Of a stretch of 39,161 bases of DNA, positions 6,357 through 33,521 are shown in pieces. Below the pieces are notes generated by a model. The model ran no database searches and was not told the origin of the DNA. It worked only from the letters and a program-made list of their open reading frames with translations. Numbering within the stretch: the first letter of the stretch is position 1; every line of letters begins with the position of its first letter. This stretch comes from Candidatus Poseidoniia archaeon (lineage in GTDB: Archaea; Thermoplasmatota; Poseidoniia; MGIII; CG-Epi1), in assembly GCA_029936395.1 (NCBI GenBank), contig JAPYSW010000009.1, forward strand, positions 1 to 39,161, read 5' to 3'. Both the position numbers and the translations under genes were made by a program.

Positions 6357-7289
6357 ATGCCTAAATTAGAAATTAAGGATACTATCTCGGATTCAAACTG
6401 GATTAAACATATAGAATCTCTTCAAAATATTAAAGATGTTGTTGGAACAAAACAGAATCTTGCTAGAGCTCTAAAAAAGTCAATAATAAATGACTTACCT
6501 AAAGAACCATTTGGTATTCTTCTATCTGGAGGTGTGGATTCATCAATCATTGCTAAAATATGTAAGGATGATAATGCTTCTTTTAGATGTTTTTGCGTTG
6601 GAATCGAAGGTTCTGAAGATCTTAAAGTGGCTAAAGAAATCGCAATTTTATTAGATTTAGAACTCGTTTCCAAAGAATTTGAACTTGACGAAATTGAACA
6701 ATTGTTAATGAAAGTTATAGATATATTGCCACGTCCAATAATTCATGATGATAATTATATTGAATATATGGTTAAAGTGTCTGTATCTGCAGTCTTACTT
6801 GCAGCAATAAGTTTAGGTGACGAGAAAATATTTTTCAGTGGAATCGGAGCTGAAGAATTATTTGCAGGTTATCAAAGACACGTAAAATCAGTTGGTGAAG
6901 GAGGTACGTGGAGAGGTATGGATATCAAAGGACTTGAGGAAGAGAGCTGGGAGGGATTGAAACGTCTAAATAATCTTGTAATTTCAAGAGATAAATTAAT
7001 CTCTGAAAGTGTTGCAAAAGAAATTATTAGCCCTTATATTGATGATAAACTTATAGTTTTAGCAATGAGTCTATCTACTGATGAAAAAATAGACTCTACG
7101 ACAAACAAAAAGATTTTACGAGAAATTGCCGATGATCTCGGCGTTCCAAAAGAAGCTTCAGCTCGTAAAAAGAAAGGAGCCCAATATGGAAGTAATTTTG
7201 ATAAGGCTATTACAAAATTAGCCAAAAAAAATGGATTCAAATTAAAGAAGAGATACTTAGACAGTCTGATTGCAAAGAAAAGGATATGA
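6357..7289 (+). CDS. Stand-alone asparagine-synthase-type (N-type ATP-PPase) domain protein
   Basis: SGGVDSSIIAKI PP-loop, FFSGIGAEELFAGYQRHV; no N-terminal glutaminase domain. Confidence 0.8.
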   Translation: MPKLEIKDTISDSNWIKHIESLQNIKDVVGTKQNLARALKKSIINDLPKEPFGILLSGGVDSSIIAKICKDDNASFRCFCVGIEGSEDLKVAKEIAILLDLELVSKEFELDEIEQLLMKVIDILPRPIIHDDNYIEYMVKVSVSAVLLAAISLGDEKIFFSGIGAEELFAGYQRHVKSVGEGGTWRGMDIKGLEEESWEGLKRLNNLVISRDKLISESVAKEIISPYIDDKLIVLAMSLSTDEKIDSTTNKKILREIADDLGVPKEASARKKKGAQYGSNFDKAITKLAKKNGFKLKKRYLDSLIAKKRI

Positions 7290-7292
7290 CAA

Positions 7293-7303
7293 TTTTATAA
7301 ATA
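7293..7303 (+). promoter_or_regulatory. Putative TATA box (TTTTATAAATA) for 7323..7514
   Basis: TATA-like element about 25 nt upstream of the ATG. Confidence 0.5.
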
Positions 7304-7322
7304 AGCATCTTACTGAATAAAT

Positions 7323-7514
7323 ATGGGAAAATACGTTTGTCATAATTGTGACATGTCTGTTGCAGCAATGAACTGTGGAGCATGTGGTAAAGAATTAGTT
7401 CACGACACCCTTACTAAGGATGATGGAACCACAGTAGATGTTTCGAAGTGTCCTGGTGGTTGTGGAAAGATTAAGTCTCCAATGTGCTGTGGTAATGATA
7501 TGCACGCTCATTAG
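7323..7514 (+). CDS. 63-aa Cys-rich (double zinc-finger-like) protein
   Basis: MGKYVCHNCDMSVAAMNCGACGKE...SKCPGGCGKIKSPMCCGNDMHAH; eight Cys in paired arrangement; own TATA box. Confidence 0.8.
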   Translation: MGKYVCHNCDMSVAAMNCGACGKELVHDTLTKDDGTTVDVSKCPGGCGKIKSPMCCGNDMHAH

Positions 7515-7537
7515 ACTTAGCCTAACCTGTTAAATCA

Positions 7538-7672
7538 CTAGACGAGGGGAGTTGGGGGGTCCGGAACCCATTCAACTTCAGACTTAAAGGTAGTAACAAC
7601 ACCTTGGGTAGGTTTAGTATTAGTTGGAGCTACTTTGACAGATGAATTTTTATTTCTAGCAGTCACGTCCAC
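7538..7672 (-). CDS. Possible 44-aa ORF (GTG start), hypothetical; not in supplied ORF track
   Basis: Translation VDVTARNKNSSVKVAPTNTKPTQGVVTTFKSEVEWVPDPPTPLV; coding-like codon use; in-frame TAG immediately upstream of the GTG; same strand as and about 70 nt downstream of the AAA+ gene. Confidence 0.35.
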   Translation of the reverse strand: MDVTARNKNSSVKVAPTNTKPTQGVVTTFKSEVEWVPDPPTPLV

Positions 7673-7730
7673 CTAATTAGCCCTACATTAAATACTACAG
7701 TGTGCCCTACTTTAGTGATAAAATAACACT

Positions 7731-7739
7731 TTTTTTTTA
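7731..7739 (+). terminator. Oligo-T tract, possible archaeal terminator for plus-strand transcription
   Basis: Run of T residues between convergent gene ends, next to the stop of the minus-strand AAA+ gene. Confidence 0.4.
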
Positions 7740-7741
7740 CC

Positions 7742-10700
7742 TTAGAATAAACTTAAGCTATCCGAATTTGCCATTCTATCAAAAGTTTCAGTAACTAATG
7801 AATCTGGGCCCAAAACTTCTTTCGCCTTTAAGAATAAACAACGTATTTCACTTCGCTCTAAACCTTCTAGTGAAGGCATGATACCTGCTTTAATAACCTT
7901 ATCAAGAGCCAAATCAGGACCATATTTCGAAATTGAATTGAAAATAGTTACCATTGCATCAATCAATAAAGCTGGACCTATCTTACGGAAAGTACGAACT
8001 CCGACTGCTACTTCATCACCACGCTTTGGTGTTTCATCAGGTGTCAAAAATTTAACTAATTTTTCGTGACATTTGTACATGTTATTGTCATCATCATAAA
8101 AATCAAATTTCCGACTAGCATAATGTTTGCATTTCTCTCCAAATTTCCAAAGATCGTCTCCTTCAGGCCTATCTGGAACTAAACCTAACTTTTTCAACTT
8201 AAAGTATACGAACACTGGCATTCTATTGTACTCATCACCTGGGTCAGGTAAACCAATCTCAACAAATGCAAAACGACGCATTAAAGCAAAACCTACATTG
8301 AAAAGTGTATTCTTATCCTGAGTATTCATAGTTCCTATTATTCTAAATTCAGGAGGCATCATGAATGGAGCTCCTTTAGTTTCTTTATGTGTCAACAATG
8401 GTTGCTTATCTCTATACTCAAAGACTGTGAAAAGTTTACCAAACGCTTCATCAATATTAGCCCTATTAAACTCATCAATTACAAGATAATGAGGCCTTCC
8501 TGTTTCAACTATAGATTGTTCACACAATTTAGCTGCTTCAGCTACGTAACCATCTTTGAAATAATAACCACCAGAATCATCAGGTGAAATACCTCCAATA
8601 ACATCAAAATTAGACCATTCTGCATTAGCTGTAACTATAGTATAATTAGGAGCCATAGTTCCGTTAGGCTGTTTAATTTCGCCACATAGTTTCGTTAATA
8701 ATATATTTGATAAGGCTGTTTTACCAGTTCCAGGCTCACCAAACAGCATAATATTCTTACCAGAGGTTAAATGTGTAATTACTTCATCAACTGTATCTCT
8801 CGTAGTTGAATAAGCTTCAGCTATTTCTTCAAACTTGACATTGTAATCTACCTCTATTCCCTGTCTAATCACGACAGATTGATCCACAGCATCCATCATT
8901 GTTTTTTCAACAAGAGCCATCTCTGGCGTATGTTCTGTCGTATGCTTCAATTCAATCTGGAACTCATCACCATATTCCTCCATTAAAAATTCCATGGCAG
9001 AATCTACAGTCCATTCAGGCATAGCCGATTGTTGTCCAGGTATCGTTGGTGCAAACGGATCTTCACGATTAGGCATCGCCATATCGCTTGCAATTGAAAA
9101 TTCTTGTAACTTACGTGAACCAAATTTATAACTTAACCAGAATCCTATAGCTGTAACCAAAGTAGTAAGTGAAAGATATAGACGTCCTTGACTGTCTTGT
9201 GGTATTTCAATATCATTTCCCCCTATTAGAATTGGTGATAAGAAAGTGCCAAATAACGCAAAAATTCCAGCTGCGAAAATTCCAAAGTATGCCATTCCCA
9301 TTGAACTAGCATCGCCACTACGTTTTCGATAAAAGGAAAAAAGACCTACTGAGGCAACGCCAATCGCCATCACAGTTAGCATGGTGTCATTAGTATCCAT
9401 AACAAGACCATCCTCCCCATTTGTGATCAAATTATAAGCTAAAATTAAGAATTGTAAAACAAGACCGGAAATTATCATTGAAAAATATTTTGCTTCATCA
9501 ATGTCTCTAATCTTAGTACTTGTTATTAACCAATTACCGGCACCTATGAAAATAAATGTTGAAGCCATAAGAAGAAGCATACTATCCGAACCCCCTCCCT
9601 CCAGATAGAATGGTTTCACCAGTAATGCCTTGTATCCTACCCTCTGACATACAGTTTGCTCCTCAAAATCTATATTAGCCCTCATTTCTTCTAACTCGGA
9701 ATCCTGAAAAACAACAGTCCCATTATCTATTGATGATGTCGGAACAGTTCCATACGCATCCGTACAAATTAAGTAAGGACCTTGAGCATAATTAAAAAAG
9801 ACTGATGAAATCAATATAGCAACAGCAATCATAAACAAGTAGAAAGTTAAACTAGGTGGATCATCTAATGTACGCTCTTGCAAAGCGCGCCCAAGCAATA
9901 TACCTACTGAAACTATTAAACAAATAGTACAAACTAAACCAATTGTCAGAATCAAAGGCTCAATCAAATTATTAAGAATGCCTCCATAGACAATAAATAA
10001 AATAACTTCAGCAAGACCAAAAGCGATTATTGGTTGTAGTATCGCCTTATTGGAAACTGAAGTGTATAAATACAACGCACAAATAAATAAGATTATATTA
10101 AATAATACAAAAGAAACACCGCTCATCCAACTCATATTTACAAAACAACCGTATCTCTCACTATTATCTACAGTACCACTTTGGTTCGTATCAGTAACTG
10201 CATAAGTAATCAGTGGATCTTCTGCATCTTCGACTCTAAAATCTTCATACACTAATGCATCCCATATTTCACAATTGAAAGGTTCTCCAGTAAAGGGATC
10301 TGAAACTCCTCTTCCAATATCTACTCCATTCTTACGATAAGGAGTTACTGGCAGCGCACCATCTGAAGACTCCTCATCAGGCAAAGGAACTGTCGTTACA
10401 GCCAAACCTATAACTGAGAAAAATAGAAGAATAGAAATGACAAAAGCAATCAAAGGTGCCTTATAATTTATTTTCGAATCGGTTTTAAAGAAACCATCCA
10501 ATTTTCCAAAAAAGTTCCCAAAAGAGCCTTTAACGGTCGACAAAATATCAGAAAAAGAATTTGAACTACCTGATTTATCAGAAGATGGAACTTCAGAAGC
10601 TGATAATGCCTCCTCTATAGTTTTTTCTTCTTCAGTAATCGAAGGTGTTTCTGTTAAACTTGACACTACCTCTGTACTTTCAGCATCTGCTTTTTCTTCA

Positions 10701-10831
10701 ACTATAGGAGATGCTTCAGAGCCAGTTTCTTCGATAATACCACCTTCAGCCTCAAGGTCTGAACCACAAATAGCGCAAGAGACTTCATCCTCTTGTTCCT
10801 CCTCATATTGACAGACTGGACAAACCTTCAT
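7742..10831 (-). CDS. Zinc ribbon + polytopic membrane + McrB/MoxR-like AAA+ (AAA_5) ATPase fusion
   Basis: N-terminal CPVCQYEEEQEDEVSCAIC ribbon; acidic linker; many TM segments (about residues 125-590); C-terminal GEPGTGKT Walker A, HYLVIDEFNRANIDEAFGKLFTVFEYRD, FRIIGTMNTQDKNTLFNVGFALMRRFAF. Confidence 0.9.
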   Translation of the reverse strand: MKVCPVCQYEEEQEDEVSCAICGSDLEAEGGIIEETGSEASPIVEEKADAESTEVVSSLTETPSITEEEKTIEEALSASEVPSSDKSGSSNSFSDILSTVKGSFGNFFGKLDGFFKTDSKINYKAPLIAFVISILLFFSVIGLAVTTVPLPDEESSDGALPVTPYRKNGVDIGRGVSDPFTGEPFNCEIWDALVYEDFRVEDAEDPLITYAVTDTNQSGTVDNSERYGCFVNMSWMSGVSFVLFNIILFICALYLYTSVSNKAILQPIIAFGLAEVILFIVYGGILNNLIEPLILTIGLVCTICLIVSVGILLGRALQERTLDDPPSLTFYLFMIAVAILISSVFFNYAQGPYLICTDAYGTVPTSSIDNGTVVFQDSELEEMRANIDFEEQTVCQRVGYKALLVKPFYLEGGGSDSMLLLMASTFIFIGAGNWLITSTKIRDIDEAKYFSMIISGLVLQFLILAYNLITNGEDGLVMDTNDTMLTVMAIGVASVGLFSFYRKRSGDASSMGMAYFGIFAAGIFALFGTFLSPILIGGNDIEIPQDSQGRLYLSLTTLVTAIGFWLSYKFGSRKLQEFSIASDMAMPNREDPFAPTIPGQQSAMPEWTVDSAMEFLMEEYGDEFQIELKHTTEHTPEMALVEKTMMDAVDQSVVIRQGIEVDYNVKFEEIAEAYSTTRDTVDEVITHLTSGKNIMLFGEPGTGKTALSNILLTKLCGEIKQPNGTMAPNYTIVTANAEWSNFDVIGGISPDDSGGYYFKDGYVAEAAKLCEQSIVETGRPHYLVIDEFNRANIDEAFGKLFTVFEYRDKQPLLTHKETKGAPFMMPPEFRIIGTMNTQDKNTLFNVGFALMRRFAFVEIGLPDPGDEYNRMPVFVYFKLKKLGLVPDRPEGDDLWKFGEKCKHYASRKFDFYDDDNNMYKCHEKLVKFLTPDETPKRGDEVAVGVRTFRKIGPALLIDAMVTIFNSISKYGPDLALDKVIKAGIMPSLEGLERSEIRCLFLKAKEVLGPDSLVTETFDRMANSDSLSLF

Positions 10832-10919
10832 TGATTGTTAACAGAATCATGGTGTTAAAATATTAACTGATGCCAAATTAGCACAAATACAAGAAAAACA
10901 ATATTGCTAAAGAGCAAAC

Positions 10920-10927
10920 TTTAAATA
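10920..10927 (+). promoter_or_regulatory. Putative TATA box (TTTAAATA) for 10953..13331
   Basis: Element about 26 nt upstream of the ATG at 10953; leaderless spacing. Confidence 0.55.
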
Positions 10928-10952
10928 GGAGTCGGACCAAAAAGTAGTCCAC

Positions 10953-13331
10953 ATGAAAGAACAATTACAACAGATACAAGCGGTCGCCATTGTCACTTTC
11001 TTGTGTGTATTGATTTCAATCCATAGTAGTGGTGAATATGCTGAATGGTTTGAAGTCAGTGGAACAAGACAAAATGTCGATCCTGTAAGTGGAAATAACT
11101 CAGGCGATAGTTTCCGTTTTGAATACAGCTACTATCTTTCTGAATATATTTATTTTGAACAGAATGGCGAACAAAGAACTGTCCAATATAATAATGCAAT
11201 CGATTGTGACTCTTGTTTAAGTCAGAATCAAGCTTCTAAAAATGTAGAACGTCTCGCATATGGTACTGCACTAATGGCTATTGCTGTTGCATATATGGCA
11301 AATGATTCTATCAAAAATTTACATAAAAAGAATCTAAGAAAAGCTCTTACTAACTTAAAATATTCCGCAATACTCGTATTAGTCTTGGGAGCCTTGACGG
11401 CTTCTTCATTTGCTATGTCATGGCCAACTGCATTAACAGAAGATGAAGCTGGAATAAGTACTGAAATGGAACAACAACCTGTTTTAGGATGTATAGTCAA
11501 TACATTAACTTTCTACGGCAGTGGCTCTTGTGAAACATATGTTGAAACTGAAAAGGGATCTGTCGATAAGATAACTGCTAGAATAAGCCCGATATCATGG
11601 AGTCCGGGAATTGGTTTCTTTGTCGTTCTGTTAGGAGGTATTCTAACCGGAGGTGGGACACTGTACATTCTTGGCAATATTGATGAAGAATGGCAGAATG
11701 TACTGAAAAAACAAGACCTTATAGAAAGACAACAAAAAATACAAAATGGTGAAATTGATAAGAATAAAGATCTTCTCCGAGAATTTGAAGATACTGAAGA
11801 AAAATTAAGAAATGCAGAAAGAAAAATACAAGAAGTAAAAACTGTTGCTGAAGGTATTGATTATGATGGAATTGATGATTTAAACGTTGAATTGGATAGA
11901 CTAACAGCACTCAATCAAAGTGTAGAAACATTAAATAATTCACTGGAAAACAAGTTAAAAAGTGCTAGAATAGCTACTTCTGAAGTTGAAAAAAGATCGC
12001 GAATGGCTGAAAAAGAATTGAATGACGATTTAGCTGCTAAGTCAAATCTTGAAACCGAAATCGATGATTTAAGAGGAAAACATGAAAATGATATGAGGTT
12101 AAGCGATAGAATGACTCGTGAAATTGGTTCTCTAAGAAAAATGAGTGAGGATGCTGAAGAAAAAGCACACGAAGCTGAAAAGAAATTAAAAATTGAAAAA
12201 CCTGAAACTATCAGTGCCCTAGAATCTTATGACTCCGTAAAAGCCGCATACGATAAGACTGTTGAAGAAAAGAACAATCTTGAAAAAGAAATAATGGATT
12301 ATGAACAGCATACCTTGGAATCTAATGAAAGAGAAAAAGCAGCAGAAACTGAACGAAAAGATGCCACACAGCGAAGAAAAGAACTAGACCGAGAAGTGAA
12401 ACTTATGGACAAAAATAAAAACCGTATAAATGACAAATTTACAACGCTTACAACTAGCATAGAAAAAGCAAAAAAAGATCTGGCTGCAGCGCGTGAAAAA
12501 GCAGCAGTCACATTAAGTGAATTGGATTTAGAAAGAGAAACAATAATTGAATTACAACAAGAAGCAGAAAAGCATAGGGCAAAAGAAGGTGAAATAATTG
12601 GCTTAACTGACTCATTAAAGGAACTACAAGAACAAGTTGCTGAACAAGGTACCTCAAATTCTGGAATTCAAAATGATTTAAAAGATGAAACTAATAGAAA
12701 AAGGAAAACTCAAACTGATCTCAGTACATTAGAAAGGGCTTCAAAACAAGTTAGTAAAGTAATGGAGAGTCTGAAAAAACAATTTGATGAAGCTAAAACT
12801 GAATTAAATATTTCTATGGATGATCGAAACCAAGCAGAACGACTACTCGAGGTCGAAAAAGCAGAACATGATAAATTGAAAGAAGATCTTGAATTTCTAC
12901 AAGGAACGACTATCGGAAATGAAGAAGATACTGAAAGAAAAATAAAAGCTATGGAAATAGAGACTCCAAAAAATCAAGAACAAGCTAGGGAAATGAAAGA
13001 AGAAATTGATGAACTGAATGCTCAAAATTTAGATTTATCTGACAAAATTAAAGAAGCTAGAATTGATAGCATTGACAAAGTGGCAGAACAACCTGTAACT
13101 GAAACTAATAATTCTGAAGCACCTGTCGCAACTATTGGTTCAAGTGTTATAGTTAAAAACTTGACAAAGGAAACTGAACATCATTTTGAACTTGTTAATC
13201 CCGACCAAGTGGATCCAAAGAACGGGAAAATACCATTGACTAATCCTATTGGAAAAGCTCTAGAAGGTGCTAAAGAAGGGGACGAAGTTAAAGTAGGACC
13301 AAATCTATTCAAAGTATTAAAATTGAATTAA
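10953..13331 (+). CDS. Membrane-anchored long coiled-coil protein with C-terminal GreA/GreB-like module
   Basis: TM segments near N-terminus (VAIVTFLCVLISIH, YSAILVLVLGALTASSFAM, GIGFFVVLLGGILTGGGTLYILG), ~400-aa charged coiled coil, C-terminus GSSVIVKNLTKETEHHFELVNPDQVDPKNGKIPLTNPIGKALEGAKEGDEVKVGPNLFKVLKLN matching the GreA C-terminal domain pattern. Confidence 0.88.
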   Translation: MKEQLQQIQAVAIVTFLCVLISIHSSGEYAEWFEVSGTRQNVDPVSGNNSGDSFRFEYSYYLSEYIYFEQNGEQRTVQYNNAIDCDSCLSQNQASKNVERLAYGTALMAIAVAYMANDSIKNLHKKNLRKALTNLKYSAILVLVLGALTASSFAMSWPTALTEDEAGISTEMEQQPVLGCIVNTLTFYGSGSCETYVETEKGSVDKITARISPISWSPGIGFFVVLLGGILTGGGTLYILGNIDEEWQNVLKKQDLIERQQKIQNGEIDKNKDLLREFEDTEEKLRNAERKIQEVKTVAEGIDYDGIDDLNVELDRLTALNQSVETLNNSLENKLKSARIATSEVEKRSRMAEKELNDDLAAKSNLETEIDDLRGKHENDMRLSDRMTREIGSLRKMSEDAEEKAHEAEKKLKIEKPETISALESYDSVKAAYDKTVEEKNNLEKEIMDYEQHTLESNEREKAAETERKDATQRRKELDREVKLMDKNKNRINDKFTTLTTSIEKAKKDLAAAREKAAVTLSELDLERETIIELQQEAEKHRAKEGEIIGLTDSLKELQEQVAEQGTSNSGIQNDLKDETNRKRKTQTDLSTLERASKQVSKVMESLKKQFDEAKTELNISMDDRNQAERLLEVEKAEHDKLKEDLEFLQGTTIGNEEDTERKIKAMEIETPKNQEQAREMKEEIDELNAQNLDLSDKIKEARIDSIDKVAEQPVTETNNSEAPVATIGSSVIVKNLTKETEHHFELVNPDQVDPKNGKIPLTNPIGKALEGAKEGDEVKVGPNLFKVLKLN

Positions 13332-29900: not shown

Positions 29901-32900
29901 ATGAGACATGAATTAGGAACAATTATTTTTCTGGCAATAGCTGCTAGTTCCTTAATATTTTTATCAATCGAAGCTGAAGGAGCTCCTGATTTATTTATAG
30001 ATAATGCCGAATATTCTAATGACCAATCTCAAGAAAGACTACTCGTCGCAAGCGGAAGAGATAATGCTACCGACTACAAGTATTTGATTATAGATGATAT
30101 TAATGATTCTCCTGAAAACTGGTCTCTACCAGAATTTAATGACTCTTCTTGGAGTTTCGGTGCTGCGCCTTTTGGTGATCGGTCATCTGGTGGTGTTGAA
30201 CCGAATATAATATGGGATACTTCTGGAAGTTCTCCCTATAATGATGATGTTATACTCATAAGACACAAATTCCAAGTTTCCGGAATCGTAACCTCTGCTG
30301 AACTTGATGTAGCAGTTGCAAATTTTTGCACACCTTACTTAAATGGAAATATGATTTATGATGATAGAGGTGGAGATAGTCGAGCACAGGAGTATTGGAA
30401 TGATGATGCTGCAGGAACAATAGCTCCTTCTTTATTCAATCAAGGCGAAAATGTACTTGCTGTATATGCTCGTGATTATGTTGGAGGATGGGGTAGTAGC
30501 AATAGACAATGGATTGATCTACAATTAACGGCTCAAATTTTTGAACCCACTAATGAGTCTATAATTCTTGGAGATACTGTTAATATAGTAATAAATGGAG
30601 GAAATCAAGGAAACCAAAGTGCTGAAACTGTATTTCTAAATAGTACTTCGGGAATTTCTAACAATAGTAGCCTCTTTTTCGCATCATTACCTGCCAATTA
30701 CAGTGGCCAAGTATTTATTAGTTGGATTCCTGAGAAAATAGGCCTTAATCAACTTAACATTTCATTTTCTTGTAATTGTAATGAAACTAATTTCACTAAT
30801 AATTATTTTATTTTAAATGTGACTGCGAATATTTACTCATTAAATACTTCATTTAATAATGAATTATTGTCTGTGAACCAAAGTAGAATTGTTACCACCA
30901 TAATTCAAGTTAGTAATGATGGGGATTTAACTGACAACATAACTCTAACATACGGAGATCCCATATTTAGTAACTGGAATATTATATTTACTCCCAATAA
31001 TTTCTTACTAGAACCGGGCCAAACACAAAATGTTTTGCTAACTGCCCTCATACCTGAATCATATGAAGATGGATTCTATAATCTCTCTTTCAAAGTAGAT
31101 AGTACTCATAATTACGTAATAACAAAAACCTTATTGAGCCGAGGTGCAAATAATGATGTGGATTGGAGATGGATAAATTCAACTGGTTCTGAAGAATTAT
31201 TTAATAATACAAACTGGACAAAATTAGGATTTAATGATTCTTTATGGAGTGATGGAAATACTCCTTTCGGTGATACTGATTTAGGTGGAATGGACTACCA
31301 AACTTTCTGGGATGGTGATAATTATGCCTACTTTAGACATATAGTTAATATTTCGGATATTAGCCTTTATGATGGAGGATTTATGAGCATCGGTGTTGCA
31401 ACAAATAATTATGGCGATCACTACATTAACGGAATTTATGTATTTGGTGATATAGATGGAGGTAGTGGACACGGAGCTGAATACTGGAATGAAGAAGTTC
31501 AAGTATACACAAACTATCTAAATCAAGGAGAAAATATAATTGCAAGTGTAGTTTATAACCCATCAAATACACAATGGTTTGACCAAGAAATTGAGATTAC
31601 ATTTCCTCAATCTAATTTATGGAATTACAAAACTGAAACGAATGAAATCCCTATTTATCTTGATTCAACACCTCCATCTTCAGGATTTATTAATGAAGGA
31701 TTTTATCGTAATAATTCTACTTTTGAAGCTAAATGGAGATGCATGTCTGATTGTGGTGATTTAGAAGGGTATTATATTTATTACTTAGAAAAAGATGGGG
31801 GAAATATAGGTGAATGGATTTCTCTAGGGTTTTACACAAATACTTCTATGAATTTCAGTGGCCAAAATGGAATAATCTATCGATTTAAATCAGTTGCCAT
31901 AGATACGCTCGGAAATATTGAATATAAAAACTCTTATGACACGGAAATGAATATTGATTTAGACTTACCTCAATCTAAACTTTGGATAGTTGAGGGAGAT
32001 TATGAATTTACTAATCGAGATGGGGTGACTGTACAATGGAAAGCAAATCTCACATATGATATTCAAGCTTATCTAATAGAATATAGAGAGAGTGGAAATA
32101 TAACGTGGAAAGATTTTGGATCATTCACTGGACCTGGTCAATATTGGTTTTCACCAACATATGATGCAACATTTGAACTTCGTTCACGAACAATTGATTA
32201 TGCTGGTAACATTGAAATTAAAGAAGTTAGTGACATTACAATAACTTTTGATAGAGTAAAACCTATTGTGAAATTAAATCCTATCAATACTCTTGTTGGT
32301 CCTGAGGATTTGATAATTAGCATACTATACTCTAGTGAAGATTTAACTAATATAACTTTAGAATATGCCCAAATAAATGAAAATAATGAAGAAGAACTAG
32401 ACTGGAAAATGTGGAGCAATGACTGGGAAAATAAATCGGCTATTACTAATTTATTAGATGCTAAAACCTATTATTTCCGAATTAACCCCTTGGATTTAGC
32501 AGGAAACGATTATACTAGAGAAACATATCAATTTACACTTCAAATCATTTCTGAAGAGGATCTTAATATCCAATTACCCGTTCATCCTCTAAAACCAGTT
32601 ATGATTGGGAAAATTAGGAACATGGCTATTAGTGTCGATGAAGATGGTGATGGAATCTTTGAAACTAGTTTGGAAGAATATACTGGTACCGATTTGACTG
32701 GAATGACTGCAAACCAATATTGGATTGATTACGCTAACTCTAAAGTTGTATTTGGCAATGGAAATGATGGATATATGCCTCCCATTAATTCTTCAGTATC
32801 ATTTGTTTATCATGGTTTTGACTTAAAAACTACAATAGATGCAACTCCTCCTGAACCAGTTACTATTGCTAGCTTCATTATTGAAGAAAGAAATAATGCT

Positions 32901-33521
32901 ACTCTAGAATGGGAACGGCCTGTAGGTGCAGTAAGCTTCTTCATTGAAAGTAAAAGGAATTTCACTACGGACTGGATTTCAGTAATTATTATAGAGGCAA
33001 ATAACACAGATGAACTGAAATATAAATTAGTAAATTTGAGTAATGGATTTCATTATTATCGAATTAGTTCTATTGACAGAATGGGATATACTAACTCAGA
33101 TATGGAACCTAAATTCTTAGAGATAATTATCAAAGCTGAAATTATCAATGAAGTTATAAGAGAGGAGAAACCTGAGAATGATATTTATATTTATGTAGGT
33201 GCTGCAGTTTTATTAATCTCAATAGCACTATTCTCTGCAAGTTATATATTTAAAAGAAATGAAACGGATGAATTAATTAGTGATGGACCTGTATTGATAC
33301 CTTTAGAAAGTTTTACAGAAGAAGGATTTAATGAAAAAGTAAATCAAACTTTAGATGTGGAAGATGATAAGGCACCTTTTAGTGTGATCTCAGGAAGTGA
33401 ATTTTCTCGACAGGTTTCATTCATATGTGAGACTGGTTGTTCAAAAGAATTTAAAGGTAAAGGTGATGATGAAGAAATTATGTGCCCTTATTGTGGTACT
33501 ATTGGTGAATCACCACTATAA
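29901..33521 (+). CDS. Large secreted/membrane-anchored protein with duplicated extracellular beta-domain and C-terminal cytoplasmic zinc ribbon
   Basis: Signal peptide; two related blocks (NWSLPEFNDSSWSFGAAPFGD... and NWTKLGFNDSLWSDGNTPFGD...); one TM (IYIYVGAAVLLISIALFSASYIF); C-terminal C...C...CPYCGTIG. Confidence 0.85.
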   Translation: MRHELGTIIFLAIAASSLIFLSIEAEGAPDLFIDNAEYSNDQSQERLLVASGRDNATDYKYLIIDDINDSPENWSLPEFNDSSWSFGAAPFGDRSSGGVEPNIIWDTSGSSPYNDDVILIRHKFQVSGIVTSAELDVAVANFCTPYLNGNMIYDDRGGDSRAQEYWNDDAAGTIAPSLFNQGENVLAVYARDYVGGWGSSNRQWIDLQLTAQIFEPTNESIILGDTVNIVINGGNQGNQSAETVFLNSTSGISNNSSLFFASLPANYSGQVFISWIPEKIGLNQLNISFSCNCNETNFTNNYFILNVTANIYSLNTSFNNELLSVNQSRIVTTIIQVSNDGDLTDNITLTYGDPIFSNWNIIFTPNNFLLEPGQTQNVLLTALIPESYEDGFYNLSFKVDSTHNYVITKTLLSRGANNDVDWRWINSTGSEELFNNTNWTKLGFNDSLWSDGNTPFGDTDLGGMDYQTFWDGDNYAYFRHIVNISDISLYDGGFMSIGVATNNYGDHYINGIYVFGDIDGGSGHGAEYWNEEVQVYTNYLNQGENIIASVVYNPSNTQWFDQEIEITFPQSNLWNYKTETNEIPIYLDSTPPSSGFINEGFYRNNSTFEAKWRCMSDCGDLEGYYIYYLEKDGGNIGEWISLGFYTNTSMNFSGQNGIIYRFKSVAIDTLGNIEYKNSYDTEMNIDLDLPQSKLWIVEGDYEFTNRDGVTVQWKANLTYDIQAYLIEYRESGNITWKDFGSFTGPGQYWFSPTYDATFELRSRTIDYAGNIEIKEVSDITITFDRVKPIVKLNPINTLVGPEDLIISILYSSEDLTNITLEYAQINENNEEELDWKMWSNDWENKSAITNLLDAKTYYFRINPLDLAGNDYTRETYQFTLQIISEEDLNIQLPVHPLKPVMIGKIRNMAISVDEDGDGIFETSLEEYTGTDLTGMTANQYWIDYANSKVVFGNGNDGYMPPINSSVSFVYHGFDLKTTIDATPPEPVTIASFIIEERNNATLEWERPVGAVSFFIESKRNFTTDWISVIIIEANNTDELKYKLVNLSNGFHYYRISSIDRMGYTNSDMEPKFLEIIIKAEIINEVIREEKPENDIYIYVGAAVLLISIALFSASYIFKRNETDELISDGPVLIPLESFTEEGFNEKVNQTLDVEDDKAPFSVISGSEFSRQVSFICETGCSKEFKGKGDDEEIMCPYCGTIGESPL

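Follow-up and report, generated by a model that had tools for sequence, protein, structure and literature searches.

GreA/GreB C-terminal (GreA/B-C) domains have been described in large non-Gre proteins of conflict systems, sporadically in archaea too (PMC8195603), among them the TPR-GreA/B-C-PIN conflict proteins (Kaur et al. 2021, PMC8195603). In the Gre factors, the C-terminal domain binds the β′ rim helices at the secondary channel of RNAP (PMC7527559), catalysis is the role of the N-domain tip (PMC7527559, PMC8195603), and binding to the rim helices has been proposed for the C-terminal domain in other multidomain proteins too (PMC8195603). Long coiled coils occur in two other described systems: McrB GTPases with coiled coils are known as CoCoNuTs, and ShdA of the Shield system carries a single TM helix followed by a long coiled coil and, as its C-terminal functional domain, an RmuC-like nuclease (PMC11090510).

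The DNA analysed here (the window) is a stretch of 39,161 nucleotides and constitutes one entire contig of a 1.17-Mb draft MAG of a Candidatus Poseidoniia archaeon, a member of a marine group. An ORF of 792 aa at 10953–13331 on the forward strand, exactly where an earlier note had placed it, encodes a protein with the same order of parts as ShdA, to which we liken it by description alone.

Positions 10953–13331, forward strand: protein of 792 aa with four TM helices, a long coiled coil and a Gre C-terminal domain (ORF, nine other orthologs, low dN/dS).
Positions 10953–11675, forward strand: N-terminal membrane module, aa 1–241 (averaged hydropathy, loop charges and alignment of 10 orthologs).
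Positions 11676–12902, forward strand: charged coiled coil, predicted to be cytoplasmic, aa 242–650 (composition, periodicity, AlphaFold helices).
Positions 12903–13067, forward strand: final helix with the conserved acidic breaks, aa 651–705, TIGNEEDTERKIKAMEIETPK... (AlphaFold breaks, per-residue conservation, no PF03449 match).
Positions 13068–13127, forward strand: variable linker, aa 706–725 (dN/dS, AlphaFold pLDDT below 50).
Positions 13128–13328, forward strand: GreA/GreB C-terminal (FKBP-like) domain, aa 726–792 (Pfam PF01272, Foldseek).

The gene is real. Nine more genomes of the genus carry full-length orthologs with 63–81% identity to the window protein, and the resulting 10 full-length copies from 10 genomes, which form our ortholog alignment, lie at the same locus among archaeal neighbour genes. 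Fragments that end at contig ends were found in three further genomes of the genus (G006, G014 and G015). The window gene is under purifying selection (low dN/dS). Many comparisons were saturated at synonymous sites, so that the values serve only to rank the parts of the protein; in the unsaturated ones, the Gre domain (0.015–0.046) is among the most constrained parts, and the linker at aa 706–725 lies at 0.50–0.86.

Using hydropathy averaged over the 10 orthologs, we identified four TM peaks (aa 5–23, 98–116, 138–156 and 222–240). Throughout these orthologs, the short loop between TM2 and TM3 has a charge of +3 to +5, against −6 to −15 for the two long loops, and thus both ends of the protein are predicted to be cytoplasmic; under the positive-inside rule, the coil would lie inside. 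Invariant cysteines, C85/C88 and C180/C193, fall in the predicted outside loops. With four TM helices and a Cys pair in loop 1, the 4TM part might be likened to claudins, a reading that was dropped for want of a Pfam match and of a usable model. Distant relatives of the 4TM module are encoded elsewhere in the genus; they are smaller and have no coil or Gre domain, so that the window protein is a modular assembly. Paralogous frames of this kind, 302–456 aa in length, include L087 1127–2494 (−), which has an acidic tail, and G000:C26:111–842 in the window's own genome. The full-length AlphaFold model was poor (pLDDT 48.7), and its membrane part too poor for a fold search with it.

The coiled coil consists of 44% K/R/D/E, with a heptad-like hydrophobic periodicity of 3.5 residues. 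AlphaFold placed helices, at low confidence, at aa 246–264, 270–299, 305–414, 420–565 and 570–653; as a single straight helix, the coil would be ~60 nm long. A second AlphaFold2 model, covering aa 540–792 and built from three sequences only, shows helix breaks around aa 651–656 and 668–672. Between the two predicted breaks lies a strongly conserved acidic stretch, TIG(N/S)EE(D/E)TERKIKAM. Residues 651–705 may be a diverged hairpin, one that is not recognisable as a Gre N-domain.

The C-terminal domain was identified by both sequence and fold. Pfam matched PF01272 at aa ~725–792 (E = 9.5e-13; 48.4 bits, curated cut-off 26.9) and, on the full protein, otherwise returned only a sub-threshold leucine zipper. 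The best PDB sequence matches of the window protein are GreA and GreA/GreB-like proteins, and a profile of ten Gre domains from the family matches E. coli GreA (1grj) in the PDB with E = 3.3e-8. In the aa 540–792 model, pLDDT is in the 80s for most of the domain (69 in one ten-residue block). Foldseek with this model gave 14 matches below E = 0.001, all of them GreA, GreB, Gfh1, Rnk or the GreA/GreB-like 2pn0 (9a7t_B, 5.0e-6; 3bmb, 7.2e-6; 1grj, 6.9e-5). The match is far beyond chance, and GreA/GreB, Gfh1 and Rnk share their C-terminal FKBP-like domain with the window protein. These results bear out the earlier note on N-terminal TM segments, on a charged coiled coil of about 400 aa (~410 aa by our estimate, from aa ~245 to ~650) and on a C-terminal Gre FKBP-like fold; the search for the same architecture in related archaeal genomes that it had proposed found it conserved across the genus, in the 10 full-length copies.

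The residue equivalent to GreA Ser121 is Pro761 in the window protein; it is likewise Pro in the other copies of the genus and Ser in the copy of sister-genus genome G019. S121P reduces the binding of E. coli GreA to RNAP (PMC7527559), and the proline thus speaks against unchanged RNAP binding. All genus copies retain the loop NPI(G/A)K.L.G, which corresponds to a conserved loop of Gre factors, SPI(A/G).

The catalytic half of a Gre factor was not detected. GreA_GreB_N (PF03449) had no match in the window protein even at E ≤ 1 in Pfam, and by inspection the D41/E44 acidic tip motif (GDLKENAEY context) is absent from 10 of the 10 orthologs. For alignment we used an E. coli GreA query whose C-terminal part agrees with 1grj. 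The Smith–Waterman score of its N-domain against aa 632–712 was 46, within the range of shuffled sequences (mean 28.6, s.d. 5.4, maximum 57). Moreover, the optimal alignment is not in the register that the earlier note had proposed, and a second GreA prefers a third register; the proposed N-terminal alignment does not exceed chance. Some full-length NCBIfam GreA models reach weakly into the coil, and SMC and Rad50 models match the same coil. We thus rejected the idea of a complete GreA module, of which the C-terminal domain is confirmed and the N-terminal domain was not detected. Unlike GreA/GreB, the window protein is archaeal, carries Pro at the S121 position and has, instead of a detectable N-terminal catalytic hairpin, four TM helices and a coil of ~410 aa. 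Judged by sequence, it falls outside the GreA/GreB cleavage factors. Archaeal TFS, whose fold is unrelated to Gre, is the archaeal counterpart of Gre function; a separate TFS gene with its D-E pair kept is present elsewhere in the same genome, so that transcript cleavage is already covered, and replacement of TFS by the Gre protein was rejected.

Across 395 Thermoplasmatota genomes, PF01272 was found in 8, all within the family of the window genome; in a control genome set that includes at least four archaea, its only carriers were nine bacteria. The sister-genus genome G019 keeps the tail of the Gre gene where a contig breaks off, close to the same M3 peptidase gene, and G021 retains only a relic in this neighbourhood, 20 codons from the end of the Gre gene (L079 8111–8170), between Elp3-like and M3 peptidase genes. 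The Gre gene was thus probably ancestral to both genera and later lost in some genomes, although with draft assemblies some of the absences are uncertain. A frame that by eye looks like a 2-oxoglutarate/iron dioxygenase (L015 5293–6240 (+); L024 4653–5723 (+)) lies between the Gre and M3 peptidase genes in G004 and G019 and is absent from the window. Searching IMG/VR with the Gre-domain alignment confirmed no virus-borne copies.

The best contextual clue, which the earlier note missed, is the divergent gene upstream, encoding a membrane GTPase of McrB type.

Positions 7742–10831, reverse strand: membrane protein of 1029 aa with a Cys-rich N-terminus (CPVC...CAIC), ~9 TM helices and a C-terminal McrB-type AAA+ GTPase domain (NCBIfam, PDB, synteny).
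Positions 10832–10952, no strand: shared intergenic region of 121 bp with two TATA-like elements facing apart (elements recur in nine genomes).

The GTPase gene matches NCBIfam McrB with E = 3.5e-19, far below that model's equivalog cut-off, and McrB 6hz4 in the PDB with E = 4.1e-20, its MNTQD being aligned to the MNTAD of McrB. The NxxD signature of the AAA+ domain is thus present (PF07728, E = 1.6e-19). The TATA-like elements are AAACTTTAAATAG for the Gre gene and, for the GTPase gene, the reverse complement of a TTAAAATGTTAA-type element. Other genomes of the genus show the same divergent pairing. The GTPase copy linked to the Gre gene occurs in genomes with the Gre gene and in G019; it was not found in genomes of the sister genus that lack an intact Gre gene. 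This joint loss is weak evidence of joint function, since neighbours can go in one deletion.

Most genomes of the family carry a second McrB-like copy away from the Gre gene, and in four genomes of the sister genus (G016, G018, G020 and G021), which show no intact Gre gene, only this copy was seen. Phylogenetic analysis separated the two McrB-like copies with full support; the C93 copy of G019, syntenic with the window locus, groups with the Gre-linked copies, on a long branch that leaves its placement unsure. The second copy, also a membrane protein, is followed by a conserved protein of ~700 aa, the pair being found at L058 5085–7190 (−) and 7180–10020 (−) and again in L059, L060, L062, L063 and L066. 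This ~700-aa protein, which has no Pfam or PDB match, contains the motif PEIFxNYRGVNxYFE(A/C/T)(K/Q)Y, by eye McrC- or PD-(D/E)xK-like, with Lys changed to Gln in G016 and G018. The motif makes it a possible McrC, an identity that no family or PDB match supports. Within the window itself, Rfam found only a tRNA. At 29901–33521 a protein of 1206 aa without a Pfam match has, by eye, an apparent signal peptide and a C-terminal TM segment, and an open frame at the contig end (37151–39160) matches an M6 peptidase and several PKD domains.

As in McrBC and CoCoNuT systems, a McrB-type GTPase stands beside a long coiled coil (PMC11090510). In contrast to the NxD GTPase fused to a coiled coil that characterises CoCoNuTs, however, the window GTPase has NxxD and ~9 TM helices, and the coil is on a separate gene. 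Among the neighbours scanned with Pfam, which are part of the window genes, no McrC with a PD-(D/E)xK nuclease was recognised. From the TPR-GreA/B-C-PIN proteins the window protein differs too: Pfam found no TPR repeats or PIN domain in its full length, and it has no effector match, is membrane-anchored and is vertically conserved in one archaeal genus. A limited, partial literature search yielded no description of a TM–coil–Gre architecture with a McrB-type GTPase, and the combination appears to be undescribed.

A Gre head that sits on a long membrane arm and has no recognisable catalytic half points to docking rather than cleavage. We tentatively favour, at somewhat less than even confidence, a membrane-anchored docking arm that offers its Gre head to RNAP and works with the GTPase. 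The four TM helices would anchor the protein in the cytoplasmic membrane, the very long coiled coil would extend into the cytoplasm, with the Gre C-terminal domain as a binding head on a flexible linker. By analogy with the Gre C-terminal domain in bacteria, the head would most likely contact RNAP at its secondary-channel rim and, once docked, may hold, recruit or inhibit transcription complexes near the membrane. The adjoining GTPase would probably cooperate, for example as a GTP-driven switch or remodeller. RNAP as the target and this cooperation are both what we infer; the Gre C-terminal fold, the strong constraint, the coil placed inside, the separate TFS and the conserved pair with its promoters count in favour of the docking arm, and the proline at the S121 position in every genus copy and the poor whole-protein model count against it. 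The earlier note had envisaged a Gre fold on a membrane coiled coil serving a use other than cleavage, with RNAP tethering, sensing and docking as possible examples; fold and architecture hold, and the undetected catalytic half and the TFS elsewhere agree with such a use, while the module is not the complete one it described.

That proline would suit a repurposed FKBP-like docking module with a partner other than RNAP, most simply the McrB-type GTPase or another coiled-coil subunit, acting as a membrane scaffold or GTP-driven remodeller outside transcription. The undetected Gre N-domain, the constant GTPase neighbour and the occurrence of the 4TM module in smaller paralogs that have neither coil nor Gre domain are consistent with this reading, whereas the NPI(G/A)K.L.G loop, retained in all genus copies, and the Ser of the sister-genus copy argue against it. 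Setting Pro in every genus copy against Ser in G019, we regard RNAP docking as tentative and the repurposed module as possible but somewhat doubtful. A membrane antiviral system resembling Type IV restriction, in which the GTPase and the Gre-headed coil act on the transcription complexes of invaders, is improbable. The McrB-type GTPase, the GreA/B-C domains of predicted conflict proteins (PMC8195603) and the frequency of coiled coils in McrBC-derived CoCoNuT systems (PMC11090510) would fit, but the locus is genus-wide, collinear and slowly evolving where typical defence loci are patchy, the Gre protein has no effector domain and no match in the PADLOC defence library, and no nuclease was found among the locus neighbours scanned.

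The helix breaks modelled at aa 651–656 and 668–672, the strong conservation of the acidic stretch and the extension of some GreA models into the coil could also be taken to mean that the last coil hairpin (aa 541–705) enters the secondary channel with acidic TIG(N/S)EE(D/E)TE at its tip, the protein being a degenerate but working cleavage or anti-cleavage factor of Gre type. We consider this highly improbable: PF03449 is unmatched, N-domain similarity is within the shuffle range, there is no D41/E44 motif, and the genome already has a TFS that keeps its D-E pair. The likelihood that the protein is an artefact of chance resemblance, misassembly or bacterial contamination is negligible. The window does come from a draft MAG, and the related bin G011 holds a contig of 2.1 kb (C69, L002; 2103 bp) that encodes a full GreA of bacterial appearance, GDLKENGEYHAAR included, and is itself probably bin contamination; however, the domain match is highly significant, and ten full-length copies in ten genomes at one locus with archaeal neighbours rule contamination or artefact out for the window protein.

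The docking arm in its most far-reaching form, a membrane-tethered RNAP arm made from a bacterial-type Gre domain and worked by a membrane McrB-type GTPase, would be a dedicated link between transcription complexes and membrane of a kind so far undescribed in archaea; taken as a whole, this seems rather unlikely. GreA/B-C domains outside Gre factors are known, but the papers searched contained no genus-wide, slowly evolving membrane arm that ends in one and is paired with a membrane McrB-type GTPase. Should the head not bind RNAP, a Gre domain would have been recruited as a plain docking module; if it does, the protein would physically tether transcription to the membrane in these archaea.
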